A DNA stretch of 62,803 nucleotides. Source: Lacticaseibacillus yichunensis (GTDB lineage Bacteria > Bacillota > Bacilli > Lactobacillales > Lactobacillaceae). A model generated the notes under the pieces. That model had not been told where the DNA came from. It did no database searches and saw only the letters and a program-made list of their open reading frames with translations. Below, in pieces: positions 8,482-15,086 of the stretch (position 1 is its first letter; each line of letters opens with the position of its first letter). The position numbers were made by a program, and so were the translations under genes. The DNA lies in the NCBI RefSeq assembly GCF_003946405.1, contig NZ_RHOG01000012.1:1-62803 (forward strand), given 5' to 3'.

Positions 8482-8631
8482 GTAACAAATGCGGCGCTTT
8501 CATCATGAACGAACAGGCATTCGGGTGCAAAGAATATTTGAACGTGTTAATGTGGTCACAGTTGCTTAAGAATCTTTAAAAATAAATGCGTTTATCTGAC
8601 GCGATAAGTAGTTTGAATGGAGGATCGTTGC

Positions 8632-9987
8632 ATGGTTAAGACAAAACAAGTCGTCGCTTTAACAGCAGGGCTCGTCGGTGCGGCTGGGGCCGCAGTGCTC
8701 TCTGCAAACACGAATACTGTCAGTGCCGCAACCGGGACTGTGACCTATAAAGACGGCGCGACTACCGTTTGGGGGACCCCTGCGTTCAACCAGGTCAAGC
8801 GTTACGTGACCTATAACGAAACGATCAACGTGATCGGCCAAAAGACAGTTAACGGGGCAACCTGGTATCAGATCGGCGCCGGCGAATGGATTCCGGATAC
8901 TTATCTGCAGGTCGGTGGCACCACCAAAAAGGCGACCACCACAACCACAACGGCCGCTGCACCTAGCAGCAGCAGCAGTGCCTCCAGCCAGACCCTTTCC
9001 GTGACCTACACCACTGGTGCGGTGACGGTCTGGGCCGGCACCAGCTACACGCATCCGACTGGCCAGTACCTGACCGCCGGCAACAAGTACACCGCAGTTG
9101 CCAAAACGACTGCCGGTGGTGAGACCTGGTATCGCCTGAGCAATGGCGGTTATGTCCCGGCACGCTTTGTTGCAGCTGGGGCTGGCGCCACGGCTTCCAC
9201 ACCTGCCAAGACCACCACGACCACGAGTACCGCTTCGAAGACCACGACGCCGGCTCAGTCCACCGCGACCAGCACGACCAAGCTGACCATCAGCTATACC
9301 GGTGGAGCAGTGACGGTTTGGGCAAGCGCCGGCTACAGCACGCCAAATGGCTCATATTTGACAAATGGCTCGACTGTGACCGCGACGGGCAAAGTGACCG
9401 CTTCTGGTGAGACTTGGTACAAGTTGAGCAATGGCGGCTATGTCCCAGCGCGCTTTGTATCCACGGGCGCTGCGACCAGCACGTCAGCGACCTCGACGCC
9501 TGCCAAGACGACCGCCACGACGAACACCGCTTCTAAGACGACCACCACGCCTGCCAAGCCAGCGACCTCTGCGCCTGCAACGACCACGAACACGACCAAC
9601 GTTTCTTCCAGTGCCAGCCGCACCGCGAAGATCAATGCCGTGATCGCGCTGGCCAAACAGCAGATCGGCAAGCCTTACCAATGGGGCGGCAAGGGCCCAA
9701 CGAGCTTTGATTGCTCCGGCCTCATGCATTATGTTTTCCTGAATGCGATCGGCACCGAGATCGGTGGCTGGAGCGTCCCTCAGGAATCCGCCGGGGAGGT
9801 CATCTCCGTCAGCAACCTTCAAAAAGGTGACCTGGTCTTCTGGGGTGCCCGTGGTGCTTCCTATCACGTTGCGCTGTACCTTGGCGGCGGCCAGTATCTC
9901 AACGCCCCACAGCCTGGCGAAAACGTCCAGATCGACTCGTTCTCCGCGTACTTCGAACCTTCTTTTGGGGTTCACGTGGACCTTTAA
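8632..9987 (+). CDS. Secreted NlpC/P60 peptidoglycan hydrolase with three SH3-like repeats
   Basis: The protein has 451 residues. A signal peptide (about 1-30, ending NTVSA) is followed by three SH3b-like wall-binding repeats separated by Thr/Ser/Ala/Lys-rich linkers. Repeats two and three share the endings ETWYRLSNGGYVPARF and ETWYKLSNGGYVPARF. The C-terminal NlpC/P60 domain (about 335-451) has the catalytic Cys in FDCSGLM and His in SYHVALYLGG, as in the p40/p75-like muropeptidases of the L. casei group that cut D-Glu-Lys stem-peptide bonds. The start ATG follows ATGGAGGATCGTTGC. The gene stands alone with its own terminator. Confidence 0.92.
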   Translation: MVKTKQVVALTAGLVGAAGAAVLSANTNTVSAATGTVTYKDGATTVWGTPAFNQVKRYVTYNETINVIGQKTVNGATWYQIGAGEWIPDTYLQVGGTTKKATTTTTTAAAPSSSSSASSQTLSVTYTTGAVTVWAGTSYTHPTGQYLTAGNKYTAVAKTTAGGETWYRLSNGGYVPARFVAAGAGATASTPAKTTTTTSTASKTTTPAQSTATSTTKLTISYTGGAVTVWASAGYSTPNGSYLTNGSTVTATGKVTASGETWYKLSNGGYVPARFVSTGAATSTSATSTPAKTTATTNTASKTTTTPAKPATSAPATTTNTTNVSSSASRTAKINAVIALAKQQIGKPYQWGGKGPTSFDCSGLMHYVFLNAIGTEIGGWSVPQESAGEVISVSNLQKGDLVFWGARGASYHVALYLGGGQYLNAPQPGENVQIDSFSAYFEPSFGVHVDL

Positions 9988-10003
9988 TTCAAAACTGTAC
10001 TGG

Positions 10004-10027
10004 CGCTCGCTGCGGCGGGCGTTTTTT
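10004..10027 (+). terminator. Terminator of the NlpC/P60 gene
   Basis: CGCTCGC and GCGGGCG pair around a short loop and are followed by six T. Confidence 0.75.
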
Positions 10028-10065
10028 GTTTGTCCAGACGTGGTTGCGGCGCTGGAAAAATGGAC

Positions 10066-10112
10066 AAAAAAAGGCCGATCCAGTTGCGTTGCAGACCGCA
10101 ACTGGATCGGTC
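10066..10112 (-). terminator. Terminator of the 500-nt RNA
   Basis: On the minus strand CCGATCCAGTTGCG pairs with CGCAACTGGATCGG (14 bp) and a run of T follows. On the plus strand no T run follows, which sets the direction. Confidence 0.88.
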
Positions 10113-10562
10113 AATTTAGTTACTGTTCCCGATACAACGTCACCAGGCGGGCGTCACGCCGCTTGGGTCGATCTTTGGTGCGGGTCAGGGCGTCTGTTCA
10201 GCGGCCCTCGTTTGTCAGATTGGTCCTGGCCGTTTGACCGCACTTAATACGGCCTTGATGAAGGGATTTTTTTAGATCTCCCAAATCGTTGCTTTCCAAC
10301 TCGTTAGGGGGACGTGATCGGCGTCCCAGCCCGCAGTGGTGCCGGGCTTTTCCGGAAGTACTTGTTCATTTGCCTGGTGTACCCAGGGTGACTAGGCAGG
10401 GTGGCCCTCCCAGTGACGGTCGCCGTCTCGACACGAGACCAACTAATCGTGCCGCGGTGTGTTCGCGAAAATCACCGCGCCGTTGGACTCGCTCTCGACA
10501 TGGGGTGACTGCAACGAACTGCGACATTTGCCGGTCGCCTTGCAGACACCCAATCTTAAGAT
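10066..10562 (-). ncRNA. Unannotated structured RNA of about 500 nt
   Basis: On the minus strand a near-consensus promoter (TTGCCA, 17 bp, TATACT; 10597-10569) drives a region with no minus-strand ORF over 60 codons that ends at a strong intrinsic terminator (10112-10066). Helices visible by eye: GGGTGTCTGCAA/TTGCAGTCACCC (10551-10540 with 10514-10503, one mismatch) enclosing GCGAC/GTCGC (10538-10534 with 10525-10521); GAGTCCAAC/GTTGGTCTC (10490-10482 with 10443-10435) enclosing CGCGGTG/CACCGCG (10479-10473 with 10459-10453); AGCCCG/CGGGCT (10348-10343, 10333-10328); GGGACG/CGTCCC (10327-10322, 10314-10309); GTTG/CAAC (10300-10297, 10291-10288); GGCCGT/ACGGCC (10254-10249, 10233-10228). RNase P RNA (GAGGAAAGTCC) and tmRNA signatures are absent. 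The size invites comparison with ROOL and GOLLD RNAs, but I cannot identify it. Confidence 0.72.
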
Positions 10563-10568
10563 AGTGCC

Positions 10569-10597
10569 AGTATAATCTCGAAAGCGTTTTCTGGCAA
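10569..10597 (-). promoter_or_regulatory. Promoter of the 500-nt RNA
   Basis: TTGCCA (10597-10592) and TATACT (10574-10569) lie 17 bp apart on the minus strand. It is one of the best sigma-A promoters in the window. Start of transcription is expected near 10562. Confidence 0.8.
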
Positions 10598-10666
10598 GAG
10601 ATCCGATTGCGGGCGACGCTTCGGTAAAAACGTTGATACAGCGCGGATGCGAGACTGTTTTAGACT

Positions 10667-10693
10667 AAAAAAAAGCCGAAGTACCGACTTCGA
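10667..10693 (-). terminator. Minus-strand terminator
   Basis: On the minus strand CGAAGTC and GACTTCG-like arms (CGAAGTCGGTACTTCG) form a hairpin followed by eight T. It shields the 500-nt RNA promoter from read-through of the helicase operon. Confidence 0.75.
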
Positions 10694-10761
10694 CAAAATC
10701 TTTTACATAACATTTACGTGGCAAAAAAAGGGAGCCAAGACAAGATTGAGTCTTCACAAAT

Positions 10762-10790
10762 AAAACGCCCTGAGACAGCAAGGGCGGGAG
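10762..10790 (-). terminator. Terminator of the helicase operon
   Basis: On the minus strand CGCCCTTGCTGTCTCAGGGCG forms a hairpin followed by TTTTATTT. It is the first of two terminators behind the operon at 10854-14859. Confidence 0.65.
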
Positions 10791-10853
10791 CCACAGTCGA
10801 TGACATTTCATCCGAAACGCAAAAACTCAATAATCATGGCGACAGATGCCCAG

Positions 10854-11699
10854 TTAGGCCAGCCACCGGCCCATGATGGTCAAAAAGTGGCTCAGTTGCC
10901 ACTTGCGCACGGCACCTAACCCGGGGAAGTGGCGCGCGGCTAGGGCTTCTGAAATGGCGGTCGTGCCCGGCGTGACCGCTTCCGGATGCGTTGTCAGCCA
11001 TTCCTGCATGTTCGCGGCGGCCTCGAAGAATTTTTCCCCTGGAGCATCGAAGCCATCGTTGCTGTGCGAGACGAAATGATGCATCCACAGTGTGCCGTTT
11101 TTCCCCGGGTATAAGAGATGCAGCGCGATCGCCCGCTGCGGGTAGCCGTGCGGGTCGTAGGTCGCGCGGGACAGCGGGTAGTCCGCAAAGCCGATGCCGG
11201 GCAGGGCGGCGCGCTGGTATTGGTAAAATTCATCCGGCATGGACGCATAATCTTCGGTCCGCTGGCGGCCGGGAGTGTGATCTTCCAGATAGATCGCGCG
11301 GGGATGGGCCAGCGCCCGCACCCTTGCGGCATTCGGGACCACGGCGCGTTGGGTCGGGGCCAGCAGCGCGGCCTGGGTCTTGGTCTGCGCCAACACGAGC
11401 GGCGCGTCAAGGGGGTCAAACCAGCGAGCCGGTTGGACCCACTCGTTCCAGATCAGCGGGTAGCGCGGCTCTGCCAACAGGCCATAGTCCCCGACGCTGG
11501 CATTGGCGATGACAAAAAGCGGGTGCTCGGCGGCGGTCGCGGCGCGCAACACCTTGGCCAGGGCACTGCTGTCCTTGACCGGTTCGATGATCGGCACGAT
11601 CCGCGGCGAGAGTTGGCCTTGTTGCAACAGGCCGCTCAGCGCAAGCAAGTCCCATTGGCGCCCGCGAATCAGGGGACAATACTGCAGTGGCGCGGTCAT
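10854..11699 (-). CDS. sce7725-like (Beta-protein-like) protein
   Basis: This protein has 281 residues and no signal or membrane segment. The N-terminal YCPLIRGRQWDLLAL and IVPIIEPVKDS patterns match what I remember of the sce7725 and phage Beta-protein families, whose biochemical role is not established. The rest has no catalytic motif that I can name. It is the last gene of a three-gene operon; its start overlaps the stop of the PD-(D/E)XK-like gene by 4 bp. The tight coupling to a nuclease-like protein and a nuclease-helicase suggests a role in DNA processing or defence. Family assignment is moderate; function is unknown. Confidence 0.6.
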   Translation of the reverse strand: MTAPLQYCPLIRGRQWDLLALSGLLQQGQLSPRIVPIIEPVKDSSALAKVLRAATAAEHPLFVIANASVGDYGLLAEPRYPLIWNEWVQPARWFDPLDAPLVLAQTKTQAALLAPTQRAVVPNAARVRALAHPRAIYLEDHTPGRQRTEDYASMPDEFYQYQRAALPGIGFADYPLSRATYDPHGYPQRAIALHLLYPGKNGTLWMHHFVSHSNDGFDAPGEKFFEAAANMQEWLTTHPEAVTPGTTAISEALAARHFPGLGAVRKWQLSHFLTIMGRWLA

Positions 11700-12475
11700 G
11701 ACAGCGCCTCGGGGGTGGCGGGGCCGGCGCCGGTACCTGCTGTGCCTGCTGATCTCTCGTCCGCCCCGCGCTGCACTTGGTCCGCACCGGCCTGTCTCCC
11801 GCTTGCCAGTTTGGCCGCCGCAACTTCACTGGCCAGGGCGTCGACTTCTTCCTGCAGGGCGTCGATGGTGGTGTTTTGCAGCTCGGCGGCGAAGCGGTCG
11901 TACAGGTTGGCCTCTGGGTCATAGACATCGTAGTCACGGGTGCGCCGGCGCAGCTCCTTGGCCAGTTCGTCGACGGCAAAGCCAGAGAGGCCGCGCGCCT
12001 TTTGCTTGGCCTTGCGCACTTCACGGTCCAGGCTGGCGATGAAGCGGGTGGTCAGGGCCGCCTCGTCAACTGCCAGCGTCTGAAACCGGGCCGGCCGGAC
12101 GATGGTCAGTTGGCCGGGCGCAAGCGGCACGTCGGCGGTCGCGGCAAGCTTGGCTGCATCAAAGGCGCGATAAGTCATGACGCCGATGCCCGCCGGAATC
12201 TCGGCAGCCAGTTTTGTGTACAATTTGGCCGGCAAAACGAAGTAATTATAATTGCCGATGAAACTGAGCTTCGCGTGGCTGTGAAAATCGCTAGCGGTGA
12301 CTTTCAGCTCGAAGCATCGCCACACGCGCTGGCCGTTTTCATCTTGCATCACTAGGGTGTCGACGATGCCGAGGTCATCGGGCATGGTCACCTCGTCGAC
12401 GGCGGTCCCACCGAGGTCTTCCCAGTAGGCGTAGAGCGTTTTTTCAAGGTCGAGTGTCAGTGCGGTTTTCGTCAT
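11696..12475 (-). CDS. PD-(D/E)XK-like nuclease-fold protein
   Basis: The protein has 259 residues. The first 110 residues contain VTMPDDLGIVDTLVM followed by CFELKVTASDFHSHAK, which gives the D...ExK arrangement of PD-(D/E)XK endonucleases (D in VDTL, E and K in FELK), then a conserved-looking NYNYFVLP. The C-terminal half is charged and helical with Ala/Gly-rich ends. It starts with ATG at 12475, overlapping the helicase stop by 4 bp, and overlaps the next gene by 4 bp. The nuclease call rests on the motif only; activity is not shown. Confidence 0.58.
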   Translation of the reverse strand: MTKTALTLDLEKTLYAYWEDLGGTAVDEVTMPDDLGIVDTLVMQDENGQRVWRCFELKVTASDFHSHAKLSFIGNYNYFVLPAKLYTKLAAEIPAGIGVMTYRAFDAAKLAATADVPLAPGQLTIVRPARFQTLAVDEAALTTRFIASLDREVRKAKQKARGLSGFAVDELAKELRRRTRDYDVYDPEANLYDRFAAELQNTTIDALQEEVDALASEVAAAKLASGRQAGADQVQRGADERSAGTAGTGAGPATPEALS

Positions 12476-14859
12476 CTGCCGTCGCCTCCCAATAGGTCTT
12501 CCGTGGCCTGCCAAAAGAGTGTGAGTTGGGTCGCCAGCTCGTCCGTGGACCGTGACACTGTGGCATGGTCCCAATGCGGTGGAAATAATTCCGCGTATCT
12601 ATTTTCCGCGAAGCGGGCGTCCAAAAGGAGAATCACCCCGCGGTCATGCTTGCCGCGGATCACGCGCCCGCCGGCTTGCAGGACGTTGTTGAAGCCGGGC
12701 AGTTGGTAGGCGTAGGCGAACCCGTTGCCGTTCTTGCGGTCAAAATAATCGCGCAGGCGGTCGGTTTCGGAGTTGAGCCCGGGCAGGCCGACGGAGATGA
12801 TGGCCGCGCCGATCAGCTGCTCGCCTTTGAGGTCGATGCCTTCTGAGAAGATCCCGCCGAGAATGGCAAAGCCGACGACCGGGTCGATGTTGTCCCGGAA
12901 CTCGTCGAGAAACGCGCTGCGGTCTTCGGCGCTCATTTGCGCGGTCTGGCGGACGGTCTTCAAGTGCGGCGCGGCGGTCTCAAAGGCAGTCGCGACTTGA
13001 TCGAGGTAGCCGTACGACGGCAAAAAAACGAGGTAGTGGCCGGCATGCGCGGTCACCATCACCAGCAGGCTCTCGATCACCTGAGGGAGGCTGGCCTGGC
13101 GCTGACGGTAGGTGGTGCGAATATTCGTCGCGACGATCACTGCCTGGCGCGCCGGCGGAAACGGCGACGGGAGGCGATAGGCGAGCGACGCGTCGACGCC
13201 CCCCAAGACGTCGCGGTAATAATCCAGTGGCGAAAGGGTCGCGGAAAATAGTACGGCACCGCGCCCAAGATTCAGCGAGCCATCGATGAAGGCGGAGGGA
13301 TCCAGGCACAGCTGTTTGATGGTCACACTTTGGCTGGTCAGACTGACTTTGGTCTCAAAGGCGTCGTTGTAGAATTCGTTGATGCGCAGGTAGCCGAGCA
13401 CGATGAAATAGGCCGGCAGAAGGAGGTCCACCAAGGCCTGTTGATGGGTGTCCATGTCGGTGCTGAGATAATCGTGAATCGCGCTACCGAGGCGGGTGAG
13501 CTGGCCGGCGAAACTGTCCAGGCTTTCGGGCTGAAACACTTCATCCTGGCCCTCCGGCACGCCGGCACGCACAACGTCAAAGGCGGTCAAGAGCTTGGTC
13601 AATTCGCCTTTGATAGCGGGGATGGCCTTACCTTTGAACGGGGCGATGGCGACTTTCAGCGCAGTGAAGTCGGTGTCGGTGATCTCGGCTGAATACATGT
13701 CGCGCGCTCGGGAAACGAGGTTGTGTGCCTCGTCGATCAGAAAGAAGTTGCCTTTGTCCGGGCCGCTGAAGAACCGCTGGAGAAAAACAGCGGGATCAAA
13801 GAGGTAATTGTAGTCACAAATGATGACATCGCAAAATAAGCTGGCGTCCAGGGAGAATTCGAAGGGCTCCAGCCTGTGTTTTTTCGCGTAGCGCTCGATG
13901 ACCGGGCGGGTGAGTTGGTCCTCGTTGTCTAGCAGATCCTTCAACGCGGGCTTCAGCCGGTCGTAATAGCCAATCATGTACGGATTTTTCGTGGCGTCAT
14001 CTGGCTCGTCGGGAAATCTGATCGTGTCTTTGGCGGTCAGGGTGATGCTTTTGGCGCGCAGCCCGCCGTTTGCCAGCAGGTTCATCGCGGTCTCGGCGAC
14101 GTGGCGCGTGCTTTGCTTGGCGGTCAGGTAGAAGGCGCGATTGACGAGGCCTTCGCCCATGGCCTTGATAGTGGGAAAAAGGGTGGAGATCGTCTTGCCC
14201 GTACCGGTTGGGGCCTCCACAAACAGCCGCTGCTCGGTCATGATGGTCTTGTAAACGGCCACGGCGAGCTCGCGCTGGCCTTTGCGGTAGGCGGGGAAGG
14301 GAAAATCCAAGGTGGCAATGCTGGCATTGCGGCGAGCAACGATATCACTGCGCATTTTCAGCCAGTCGGCAAATTCGTCGATGAGGTCGTCAAAAACGGT
14401 GGCAAGTTCTTCTGCGCTGCGTTTTTCGGTGAAACGGGTCACCTTGTCGTTGCTGGTCTGATAGTAGACGAGGTCGATCTCAATGCTGTCCAGGTCGCGG
14501 TCTTCGCACAAAAAATGCGCGTACACGCGGGCCTGTGCCCAGTATCGGTCCTGCGTGTTTTTGGTGACTTGTTCCCAGGCGCGCGCGGAGGTCTTGATCT
14601 CTTCGATCACGACTTTATCGCCAGTCGTCTGCACGCCGTCTGCGCGGCCGTCGATGATGTAGTCGACGTCATTGACGGTCACGTGATGGGCGAGGTAGAC
14701 TTCTTTTTCGTAGTCGTCGTCATAGGCGGACTGGAGGCGGCGGTGGATCTGGGCGCCGATCAGCGCGGTGTTGCTGGAGTTGGTAGTCACGGGGTCGAGG
14801 TCGCCGGTGCGCACGGTCAGCTCAACCAACTCGCGCACGCCGATTCGTTCACTTGTCAT
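12472..14859 (-). CDS. Cas4/RecB-like nuclease fused to XPD/DinG-like DNA helicase
   Basis: The protein has 795 residues. The N-terminal 165 residues resemble the RecB/Cas4 PD-(D/E)XK fold (DYIIDGRADGV then VIEEIKTSAR). The rest is a superfamily 2 Rad3/XPD-type helicase with Walker A APTGTGKT (about residue 217), DEAH in LIDEAHNL (about 376), and C-terminal motifs LFSATLSPLD and QAGGRVIRG. Relatives usually carry four cysteines for a 4Fe-4S cluster between Walker A and DEAH, including a CPFEFSLD motif. Here that motif reads EPFEFSLD and FPDEPDDATKNPYMIGYYD has no cysteine, so the cluster appears lost. It is the first gene of the operon; the start ATG follows GGCGAGGCA. Confidence 0.85.
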   Translation of the reverse strand: MTSERIGVRELVELTVRTGDLDPVTTNSSNTALIGAQIHRRLQSAYDDDYEKEVYLAHHVTVNDVDYIIDGRADGVQTTGDKVVIEEIKTSARAWEQVTKNTQDRYWAQARVYAHFLCEDRDLDSIEIDLVYYQTSNDKVTRFTEKRSAEELATVFDDLIDEFADWLKMRSDIVARRNASIATLDFPFPAYRKGQRELAVAVYKTIMTEQRLFVEAPTGTGKTISTLFPTIKAMGEGLVNRAFYLTAKQSTRHVAETAMNLLANGGLRAKSITLTAKDTIRFPDEPDDATKNPYMIGYYDRLKPALKDLLDNEDQLTRPVIERYAKKHRLEPFEFSLDASLFCDVIICDYNYLFDPAVFLQRFFSGPDKGNFFLIDEAHNLVSRARDMYSAEITDTDFTALKVAIAPFKGKAIPAIKGELTKLLTAFDVVRAGVPEGQDEVFQPESLDSFAGQLTRLGSAIHDYLSTDMDTHQQALVDLLLPAYFIVLGYLRINEFYNDAFETKVSLTSQSVTIKQLCLDPSAFIDGSLNLGRGAVLFSATLSPLDYYRDVLGGVDASLAYRLPSPFPPARQAVIVATNIRTTYRQRQASLPQVIESLLVMVTAHAGHYLVFLPSYGYLDQVATAFETAAPHLKTVRQTAQMSAEDRSAFLDEFRDNIDPVVGFAILGGIFSEGIDLKGEQLIGAAIISVGLPGLNSETDRLRDYFDRKNGNGFAYAYQLPGFNNVLQAGGRVIRGKHDRGVILLLDARFAENRYAELFPPHWDHATVSRSTDELATQLTLFWQATEDLLGGDGR

Positions 14860-14938: not shown

Positions 14939-15086
14939 GGGTGGGCTCCGGCCAGAAATTGGCTGGAACGCTCCCAAGTGACTTTATGCCCGCAGAGTGC
15001 GCGGTCATAAAGCTCACTTTCGGCGTAAGCGGCAGAGCCGCTAACGCCGACGAGGGGGCTGAGCCATTTCTGGCCGGTGCCCACCC
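14939..15086 (-). repeat. Dispersed terminal-inverted-repeat element, copy 1
   Basis: The 148-bp element has about 25-bp terminal inverted repeats (GGGTGGGCTCCGGCCAGAAA at the left, its complement with one change at the right end to 15086). Inside are two hairpins: CTTTATGCCCGC/GCGGTCATAAAG (14982-14993, 15001-15012) and GGCGTAAGCGGC/GCCGCTAACGCC (15022-15033, 15037-15048). A second, inverted copy is at 55171-55365, with shared blocks such as CTTGGGAGCGTTCCAGCCAA and CCCCCTCGTCG. The arms differ between copies by compensatory changes. No ORF is convincing, so it resembles a MITE-like or BIME-like intergenic repeat. Confidence 0.8.

Follow-up and report, generated by a model that had tools for sequence, protein, structure and literature searches.

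The window analysed here, a stretch of 62,803 nucleotides from the Lacticaseibacillus yichunensis genome (G000), encodes on its minus strand (12472-14859) an XPD/DinG-like helicase with an N-terminal PD-(D/E)XK nuclease match, which adjoins proteins of 292 and 281 amino acids, both without a Pfam match. The gene for the 281-residue protein is found in 28 of 30 genomes of the genus, in two of them in pieces. Between this gene and a convergent NlpC/P60 gene lies a candidate RNA gene of approximately 490 nt on the minus strand (10597-10066), comprising a promoter, a transcript and a terminator. The features of the locus are as follows:

8617 to 9987, plus strand: convergent NlpC/P60 gene (context only)
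10066 to 10110, minus strand: intrinsic terminator, a 14-bp stem (10110-10075) followed by the T-run CCTTTTTTT
10112 to 10180, minus strand: 3' variable segment (alignment columns 385-453), holding the genome-specific sites 10172, 10169 and 10167
10181 to 10428, minus strand: shared core of 248 nt (alignment columns 137-384)
10429 to 10562, minus strand: 5' domain (alignment columns 1-136), its start at 10562 assumed from the -10 box
10569 to 10574, minus strand: -10 box TATACT (motif search and alignment of the copies)
10579 to 10592, minus strand: cre-like operator AGAAAACGCTTTCG in the promoter spacer, matching WGWAARCGYTWWMA at 13 of 14 positions
10592 to 10597, minus strand: -35 box TTGCCA, TTGACA in the second copy (motif search and alignment of the copies)
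10675 to 10694, minus strand: terminator-like hairpin of the upstream operon (from the sequence)
10768 to 10783, minus strand: weaker terminator-like hairpin, upstream (from the sequence)
10854 to 11699, minus strand: upstream gene, 281 amino acids

The minus-strand promoter named in the original prediction (TTGCCA, a 17-nt spacer and TATACT, 10597-10569) is present and agrees with the consensus at 10 of 12 positions, a level which on its own is not rare (two sites in 4 kb against 1.1 expected). The 14-bp terminator stem with its T-run is likewise found where it was predicted, with a folding z-score of -7.0, and the stem is preserved between the copies of the RNA described below by two-sided changes. 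Between the gene for the 281-residue protein and the RNA promoter lie both terminator-like hairpins (10783-10768 and 10694-10675), in keeping with the claim that two terminators set the RNA apart from the operon. From the promoter, the terminator and the conservation of the sequence, we infer a transcript of the RNA.

The stretch was compared with all 4227 Rfam families using cmscan. At gathering scores there is no Rfam match at the RNA, and the sole match in the window is a tRNA located elsewhere. When E-values of up to 10 are admitted, the region 9990-10860 gives five matches to unrelated small RNAs, all far below the gathering scores, and the second copy described below gives no match. GOLLD, OLE, HEARO, RNase P RNA, tmRNA, SRP RNA, T-box and 6S RNA, whose models are presumably present in the Rfam library, show no match up to an E-value of 10 in the two G000 copies, with a positive control for ROOL only. 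The signatures of RNase P RNA, tmRNA, SRP RNA and T-box elements are thus absent at this threshold, as had been claimed, and the Infernal search proposed alongside that claim yields no significant match to any known RNA family.

A blastn search of 60 related genomes reveals a second copy in the same genome (contig C45, 20765-21294; 87% identical) and two copies in Lacticaseibacillus mingshuiensis (G021), which are 97% and 86% identical to the window RNA, while the remaining 58 genomes have no match at an E-value of 0.001. Among the GTDB r220 species genomes, which possibly do not include the window genome's own records, an exact 21-mer of the core occurs only in L. mingshuiensis 117-1, where two contigs carry it. 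The copies, four in all, fall into two pairs of orthologues, one at the window locus and one at a second locus, which has a glycoside hydrolase family 2 (GH2) gene on one side and, on the other, a GntR regulator accompanied by PTS and GH1 genes. Both loci lie outside recognisable phage or plasmid genes. In an alignment that includes the flanks, the similarity between the paralogues starts at the -35 box and stops after the T-run, and the flanking sequences are unrelated, indicating that the duplicated unit consists of the promoter, the RNA and the terminator. Because the paralogue shares exactly this unit and conservation extends base by base, there is strong support for the central claim of the original prediction, that an RNA gene of some 500 nt, absent from the annotation, carries a promoter and a terminator of its own. 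It is very likely that the copies represent a real noncoding RNA gene family.

This family has a narrow distribution. The genome sets searched at genus, family and order level have members in common, and filters were stricter in those model searches that covered more than 40 genomes; the two covariance models (R1 and R2) were built on four near-identical sequences, such that distant relatives could escape them. Strong blastn scores are found in two of the 30 genomes of the genus, with short matches only (16-44 nt, E-values 0.004-0.9) in 23 further genomes. Two of the 397 genomes of the family are recovered with model R2 and eight with blastn at an E-value of 0.01, where six of the eight matches are 22-33 nt long, and two of the 395 genomes of the order are recovered both with blastn and with R1. 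At an E-value of 1, R1 matches four and R2 seven of the 30 genus genomes, G000 and G021 included. The best of the additional matches (R1 in G014; 26 bits, E-value 0.003) was rejected as a homologue, as it falls inside an open frame of 254 codons, and a second, weak match in the same genome (11.2 bits) falls inside the neighbouring frame of 250 codons. On score alone, the R1 match in G023 (17.9 bits, E-value 0.3) and the R2 matches in G024, G015, G007, G002 and G014 (13.7-17.2 bits, E-values 0.1-0.9) were taken as chance. So were the short blastn matches in the 23 genus genomes (E-values 0.004-0.9) and in six family genomes (E-values 0.002-0.009); when five of the short-match loci were rescored with R1, one matched, at 6.1 bits. 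No blastn match was obtained in phage records and plasmids, and no exact 37-mer or 21-mer match in viral contigs.

The gene pair that flanks the window copy is adjacent in ten other genomes. In nine of these the gap between the match ends is just 77-200 nt, and three of these nine were inspected by eye as well. The tenth, G006, has a gap of 821 nt at the syntenic place, which was rejected as a homologue site and by eye holds two small genes. At the second locus, the GH2 gene is found in seven relatives, none of which has a GntR or PTS gene match within 1.5 kb. The short gaps at the one locus, and the GH2 gene without GntR or PTS genes nearby at the other, make both sites look specific to the branch of G000 and L. 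mingshuiensis. The intergenic region that was to be aligned across related Lacticaseibacillus genomes is kept in L. mingshuiensis, but in nine of ten relatives with the same gene pair it is too short for the RNA. The nuclease-helicase operon, to which the original prediction had drawn attention, is very probably irrelevant to the RNA, for the same reason and because the second copy is situated elsewhere, between the glycoside hydrolase gene and the GntR-PTS cluster; the position of the second copy led to the operon being dropped as a candidate partner. No report of the RNA was found among the open-access literature matches listed, where mentions of 'mingshuiensis' have no RNA topic in the title or the start of the abstract, and a report elsewhere is possible.

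Between the two species the RNA is almost unchanged. Across alignment columns 10-384, the orthologues differ at two of 373 positions at the window locus and at two of 371 at the other locus; columns 1-9 were excluded from these counts, one row as extracted starting at column 10, as were gapped cells. By comparison, 135 of 839 fourfold sites in three neighbouring genes of the window locus and 77 of 461 in three of the other locus differ (16-17%; 11-27% by gene), so that the contrast between the RNA and the fourfold sites is highly significant (Fisher p 8e-21 at the window locus and 6e-19 at the other). Compared between the species in 60-nt steps, the flanks of the window copy have 75-87% identity on the upstream side and 87-93% immediately downstream; for the other copy the values are 75-95% immediately upstream and 35-87% downstream. 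Nearly every base of columns 10-384 is, on these alignments, constrained. When the sequence is read in each of the six frames at both loci, zero or one change is found at 60-77 fourfold sites, against 9.7-12.4 expected. A protein-coding role alone can therefore not explain the constraint, which is accounted for by no reading frame at either locus, and the frames in the 5' domain are shifted by indels between the paralogues. The earlier claim that about 450 nt are free of open reading frames is not literally true, as an ATG-initiated frame of 53 codons occurs (10527-10366, minus strand). The second copy retains this start codon, but indels shift the frame and the peptides diverge after approximately six residues. 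The 3' segment (columns 385-453) is less conserved, with ten of 69 positions differing at the window locus, which is close to neutral, and five of 69 at the other. The window copy alone is changed at seven columns (273, 385, 423, 431, 437, 443 and 447; window 10292-10118), of which six lie in its 3' part. The 3' end of the window copy may be losing constraint in its host species.

The paralogues differ from each other very unevenly along the RNA. In the 5' domain, 31 and 30 of 121 positions differ with gaps excluded (approximately 25%), and in the core four and two of 248, one figure per genome. Orthologues differ at one of 248 core positions at each locus and, within columns 10-136 of the 5' domain, at one of 125 and one of 123, a single substitution per locus; the near-absence of change between the species implies that each version of the 5' domain is maintained. 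While 39 columns follow the locus rather than the genome, three columns of the 3' segment (393, 396 and 398; window 10172, 10169 and 10167) carry the same base within a genome and a different base between genomes. These three genome-specific sites suggest gene conversion within genomes as the simplest reading. They lie within six bases and may reflect one event, and strong constraint on the core alone could contribute to its sameness. The pair looks like a case of gene conversion between paralogous noncoding RNA genes other than those for rRNA and tRNA, and no published bacterial case concerning such genes was present among the literature matches listed, judged by title.

The folding energy of the RNA is less distinctive. 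The whole RNA has a folding z-score of -3.78, which falls to -1.72 without the terminator; the second copy without its terminator has a z-score of -2.28 and the core alone one of -1.39, so that these folds are only slightly more stable than those of shuffled sequences. The 5' domains alone give -3.16, -1.83 and -1.07 in three copies, with predicted folds that differ between the paralogues. Of the many helices described in the original prediction, the terminator is thus well supported, but the rest is partly what is expected of a G+C-rich sequence. RNAalifold predicts 131 pairs from the four sequences, with 99.2% of cells able to pair, and two-sided changes are found in four of the 131 pairs, two of these in the terminator, in an alignment drawn from two close species with a nearly invariant core. 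Of 500 shuffles, three reach the observed covariation score and three the number of cells in which both sides of a pair change; 78 reach the count of two-sided pairs and 331 the number of pair types. When the partner columns are slid by one to three positions the support is nearly gone, but this comparison is biased towards the predicted structure, which was itself obtained from these aligned sequences. The substitutions at columns 158, 224 and 426 retain their predicted pair through a G-U exchange, while the changes at columns 56, 385, 396 and 443 each leave one pair unformed in one copy; the window copy loses two predicted pairs in the 3' segment. The core is too invariant for covariation to support a detailed fold, and beyond the terminator the predicted fold serves as a weakly supported working model, with an elaborate structure in the core being plausible. 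The palindromes GUAC and GAUC occur in two invariant predicted hairpin loops. Symmetric kissing loops join the chains of OLE, GOLLD and ROOL (excerpts of PMC12286853), and the two loops here perhaps have a role of this type, but such loops are common by chance. It is conservation and duplication, not folding energy, that lift this RNA above chance.

The cre-like operator AGAAAACGCTTTCG differs at one position from WGWAARCGYTWWMA, which we take to be the cre consensus of Lactococcus lactis. By eye, the same site is present in the L. mingshuiensis copy on contig C7, the second L. yichunensis copy (C45) matches at 13 of 14 positions and its L. mingshuiensis orthologue, on contig C5, at all 14; the operator of the second copy, AGTAAGCGCTTTCG, differs solely at positions where the consensus permits it. 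Three sites in the window fit the cre pattern with one mismatch, against 0.93 expected, and eight of 100 shuffled sequences contain as many. A single match is thus weak, and the argument for CcpA rests on the position of the operator in the promoter and its presence in both copies. The genome encodes CcpA (contig C72, 73183-74172; 544.8 bits against a cut-off of 442.35), which probably represses the RNA through this operator. A parallel is offered by 6S RNA of lactic acid bacteria, likewise noncoding; at about 200 nt it is far shorter, and the Rfam model that exists for it has no match here. In many lactic acid bacteria a cre site overlaps the -35 region of the 6S RNA gene, which is probably repressed by CcpA, and deletion of ccpA in L. 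lactis raises 6S RNA threefold (excerpts of PMC8414754). By analogy, the RNA described here should be repressed by a preferred sugar and would probably be switched on once that sugar is exhausted.

Most likely, therefore, the copies constitute a new, lineage-restricted and carbon-regulated family of noncoding RNAs that was previously unnamed. For its mode of action we favour, with moderate confidence, a folded RNA that acts in trans and combines a shared core with copy-specific 5' domains. Transcription would be started by the vegetative sigma factor and blocked by CcpA at the cre-like operator in the spacer for as long as a preferred sugar is present; once this sugar is gone, both RNAs would accumulate. 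In this model the constant core would be a folded RNA working in trans, probably through a common target or together with a protein, and each copy would owe its particular role to its 5' domain. Gene conversion would hold the cores identical because both must fit the same partner. A bolder form of this reading, which we put forward tentatively and regard as rather unlikely, is a new class of RNA machine for carbon starvation. Its two isoforms would have a single functional part in common, the gene-converted core, which perhaps serves as a scaffold or assembles into an RNA-only oligomer, and would differ in recognition through their distinct 5' domains. If so, such a machine would have arisen or survived in a small branch of Lacticaseibacillus and been kept more strictly than the surrounding coding sequence. 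OLE, another large conserved bacterial noncoding RNA, offers a partial parallel, in that cells without its complex grow less well on alternative carbon sources (excerpts of PMC10898510). This is the condition under which the RNA here should be made, and the resemblance is a functional analogy only, OLE being approximately 600 nt long and its model having no match here.

The copies may instead be sibling regulatory RNAs that base-pair with mRNAs, their 5' domains serving as different seeds and the core as a scaffold for stability. This is a serious but doubtful alternative. It would fit the distinct, conserved 5' domains of the two copies, their own promoters and terminators, and the sugar-PTS neighbourhood of the second copy. 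The most constrained part is, however, the 248-nt shared core, loops included, which extends far beyond the length of a seed, and, apart from the two copies, blastn detects nothing in the genome that resembles or complements the RNA at an E-value below 0.6, a search which short seeds would escape.

That the RNA is a messenger for a small peptide, or has a dual function, appears improbable. A frame of 21 codons in the core, MNKYFRKSPAPLRAGTPITSP, is intact in all four copies, in two of which it forms the end of a longer frame, and the ATG in the 5' domain is also kept in all four, with the first residues after it alike in two copies. The ATG of the 21-codon frame is, however, preceded by only a weak AGG, and the sole substitution that the frame has acquired, in one of the copies, is non-synonymous. 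The indels between the paralogues shift the frames of the 5' domain, and fourfold sites are frozen in every frame, such that coding does not explain the constraint.

Even less credence is given to a degenerate or non-autonomous mobile element, or a ribozyme, that jumped to two sites, as the two unrelated contexts and the gap too short for the RNA in nine of ten relatives with the same gene pair might suggest. The searches find just two copies, which occupy matching positions in both species and are under strong purifying selection, and the boundaries of the unit are a promoter and a terminator. No Rfam intron or other family is matched, nor do the phage, plasmid and viral searches described above yield a match.

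A highly diverged ROOL, GOLLD or OLE RNA is very improbable: the similar length and the PTS genes near both the ROOL of Ligilactobacillus salivarius and the second copy would agree with it, but no model matches either copy up to an E-value of 10, in a search whose control was run for ROOL only. The ROOL model (RF03087) is silent in the two G000 copies up to this value, and the same kind of scan detects ROOL at 130.4 bits in the L. salivarius plasmid pMP118, so that ROOL is largely excluded. The core models in turn score at most 2.1 bits on the L. salivarius ROOL stretch. The likeness to ROOL, GOLLD and OLE proposed at the outset thus extends to size but not to any model match, the positive control being for ROOL alone. 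Among known large RNAs, ROOL comes nearest in size and host. With it, the RNA shares a length of about 500 nt (520 nt in L. salivarius), a noncoding nature and a host of the Lactobacillaceae, whereas ROOL is found in many phages and prophages and on the L. salivarius megaplasmid (excerpts of PMC5643018 and PMC12286853). The RNA here differs in being found at just two loci, neither among recognisable phage or plasmid genes, and in its near-frozen sequence, its paralogue and the absence of detectable homology. The setting is somewhat alike, in that ROOL of L. salivarius adjoins a PTS gene and the second copy here lies near PTS genes. On pMP118 (L130, 9264-9806), the neighbours of ROOL are a PTS IIC gene and a gene for a small HTH regulator.

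Few RNAs of this size have a nearly frozen sequence. The preferred reading, a folded RNA acting in trans, concerns a narrow family with two copies, a shared core, separate 5' domains and a predicted response to one well-known regulator, in a genus that is readily cultured. For ROOL and OLE, a clear function is still described as lacking in the excerpts of PMC12286853 and PMC10898510.

An inverted repeat around GTGGGCTCCGGCCAGAAA was also observed in the window, at 14941-14963 (plus strand) and 15062-15084 (minus strand), with three and one mismatches, respectively, to the 23-mer searched. In both species, the 15-mer core of this repeat also lies close to the second copy of the RNA (L006 10544-10558; L008 10278-10292 and 10411-10425), which makes it probable that the repeat belongs to an intergenic repeat family.
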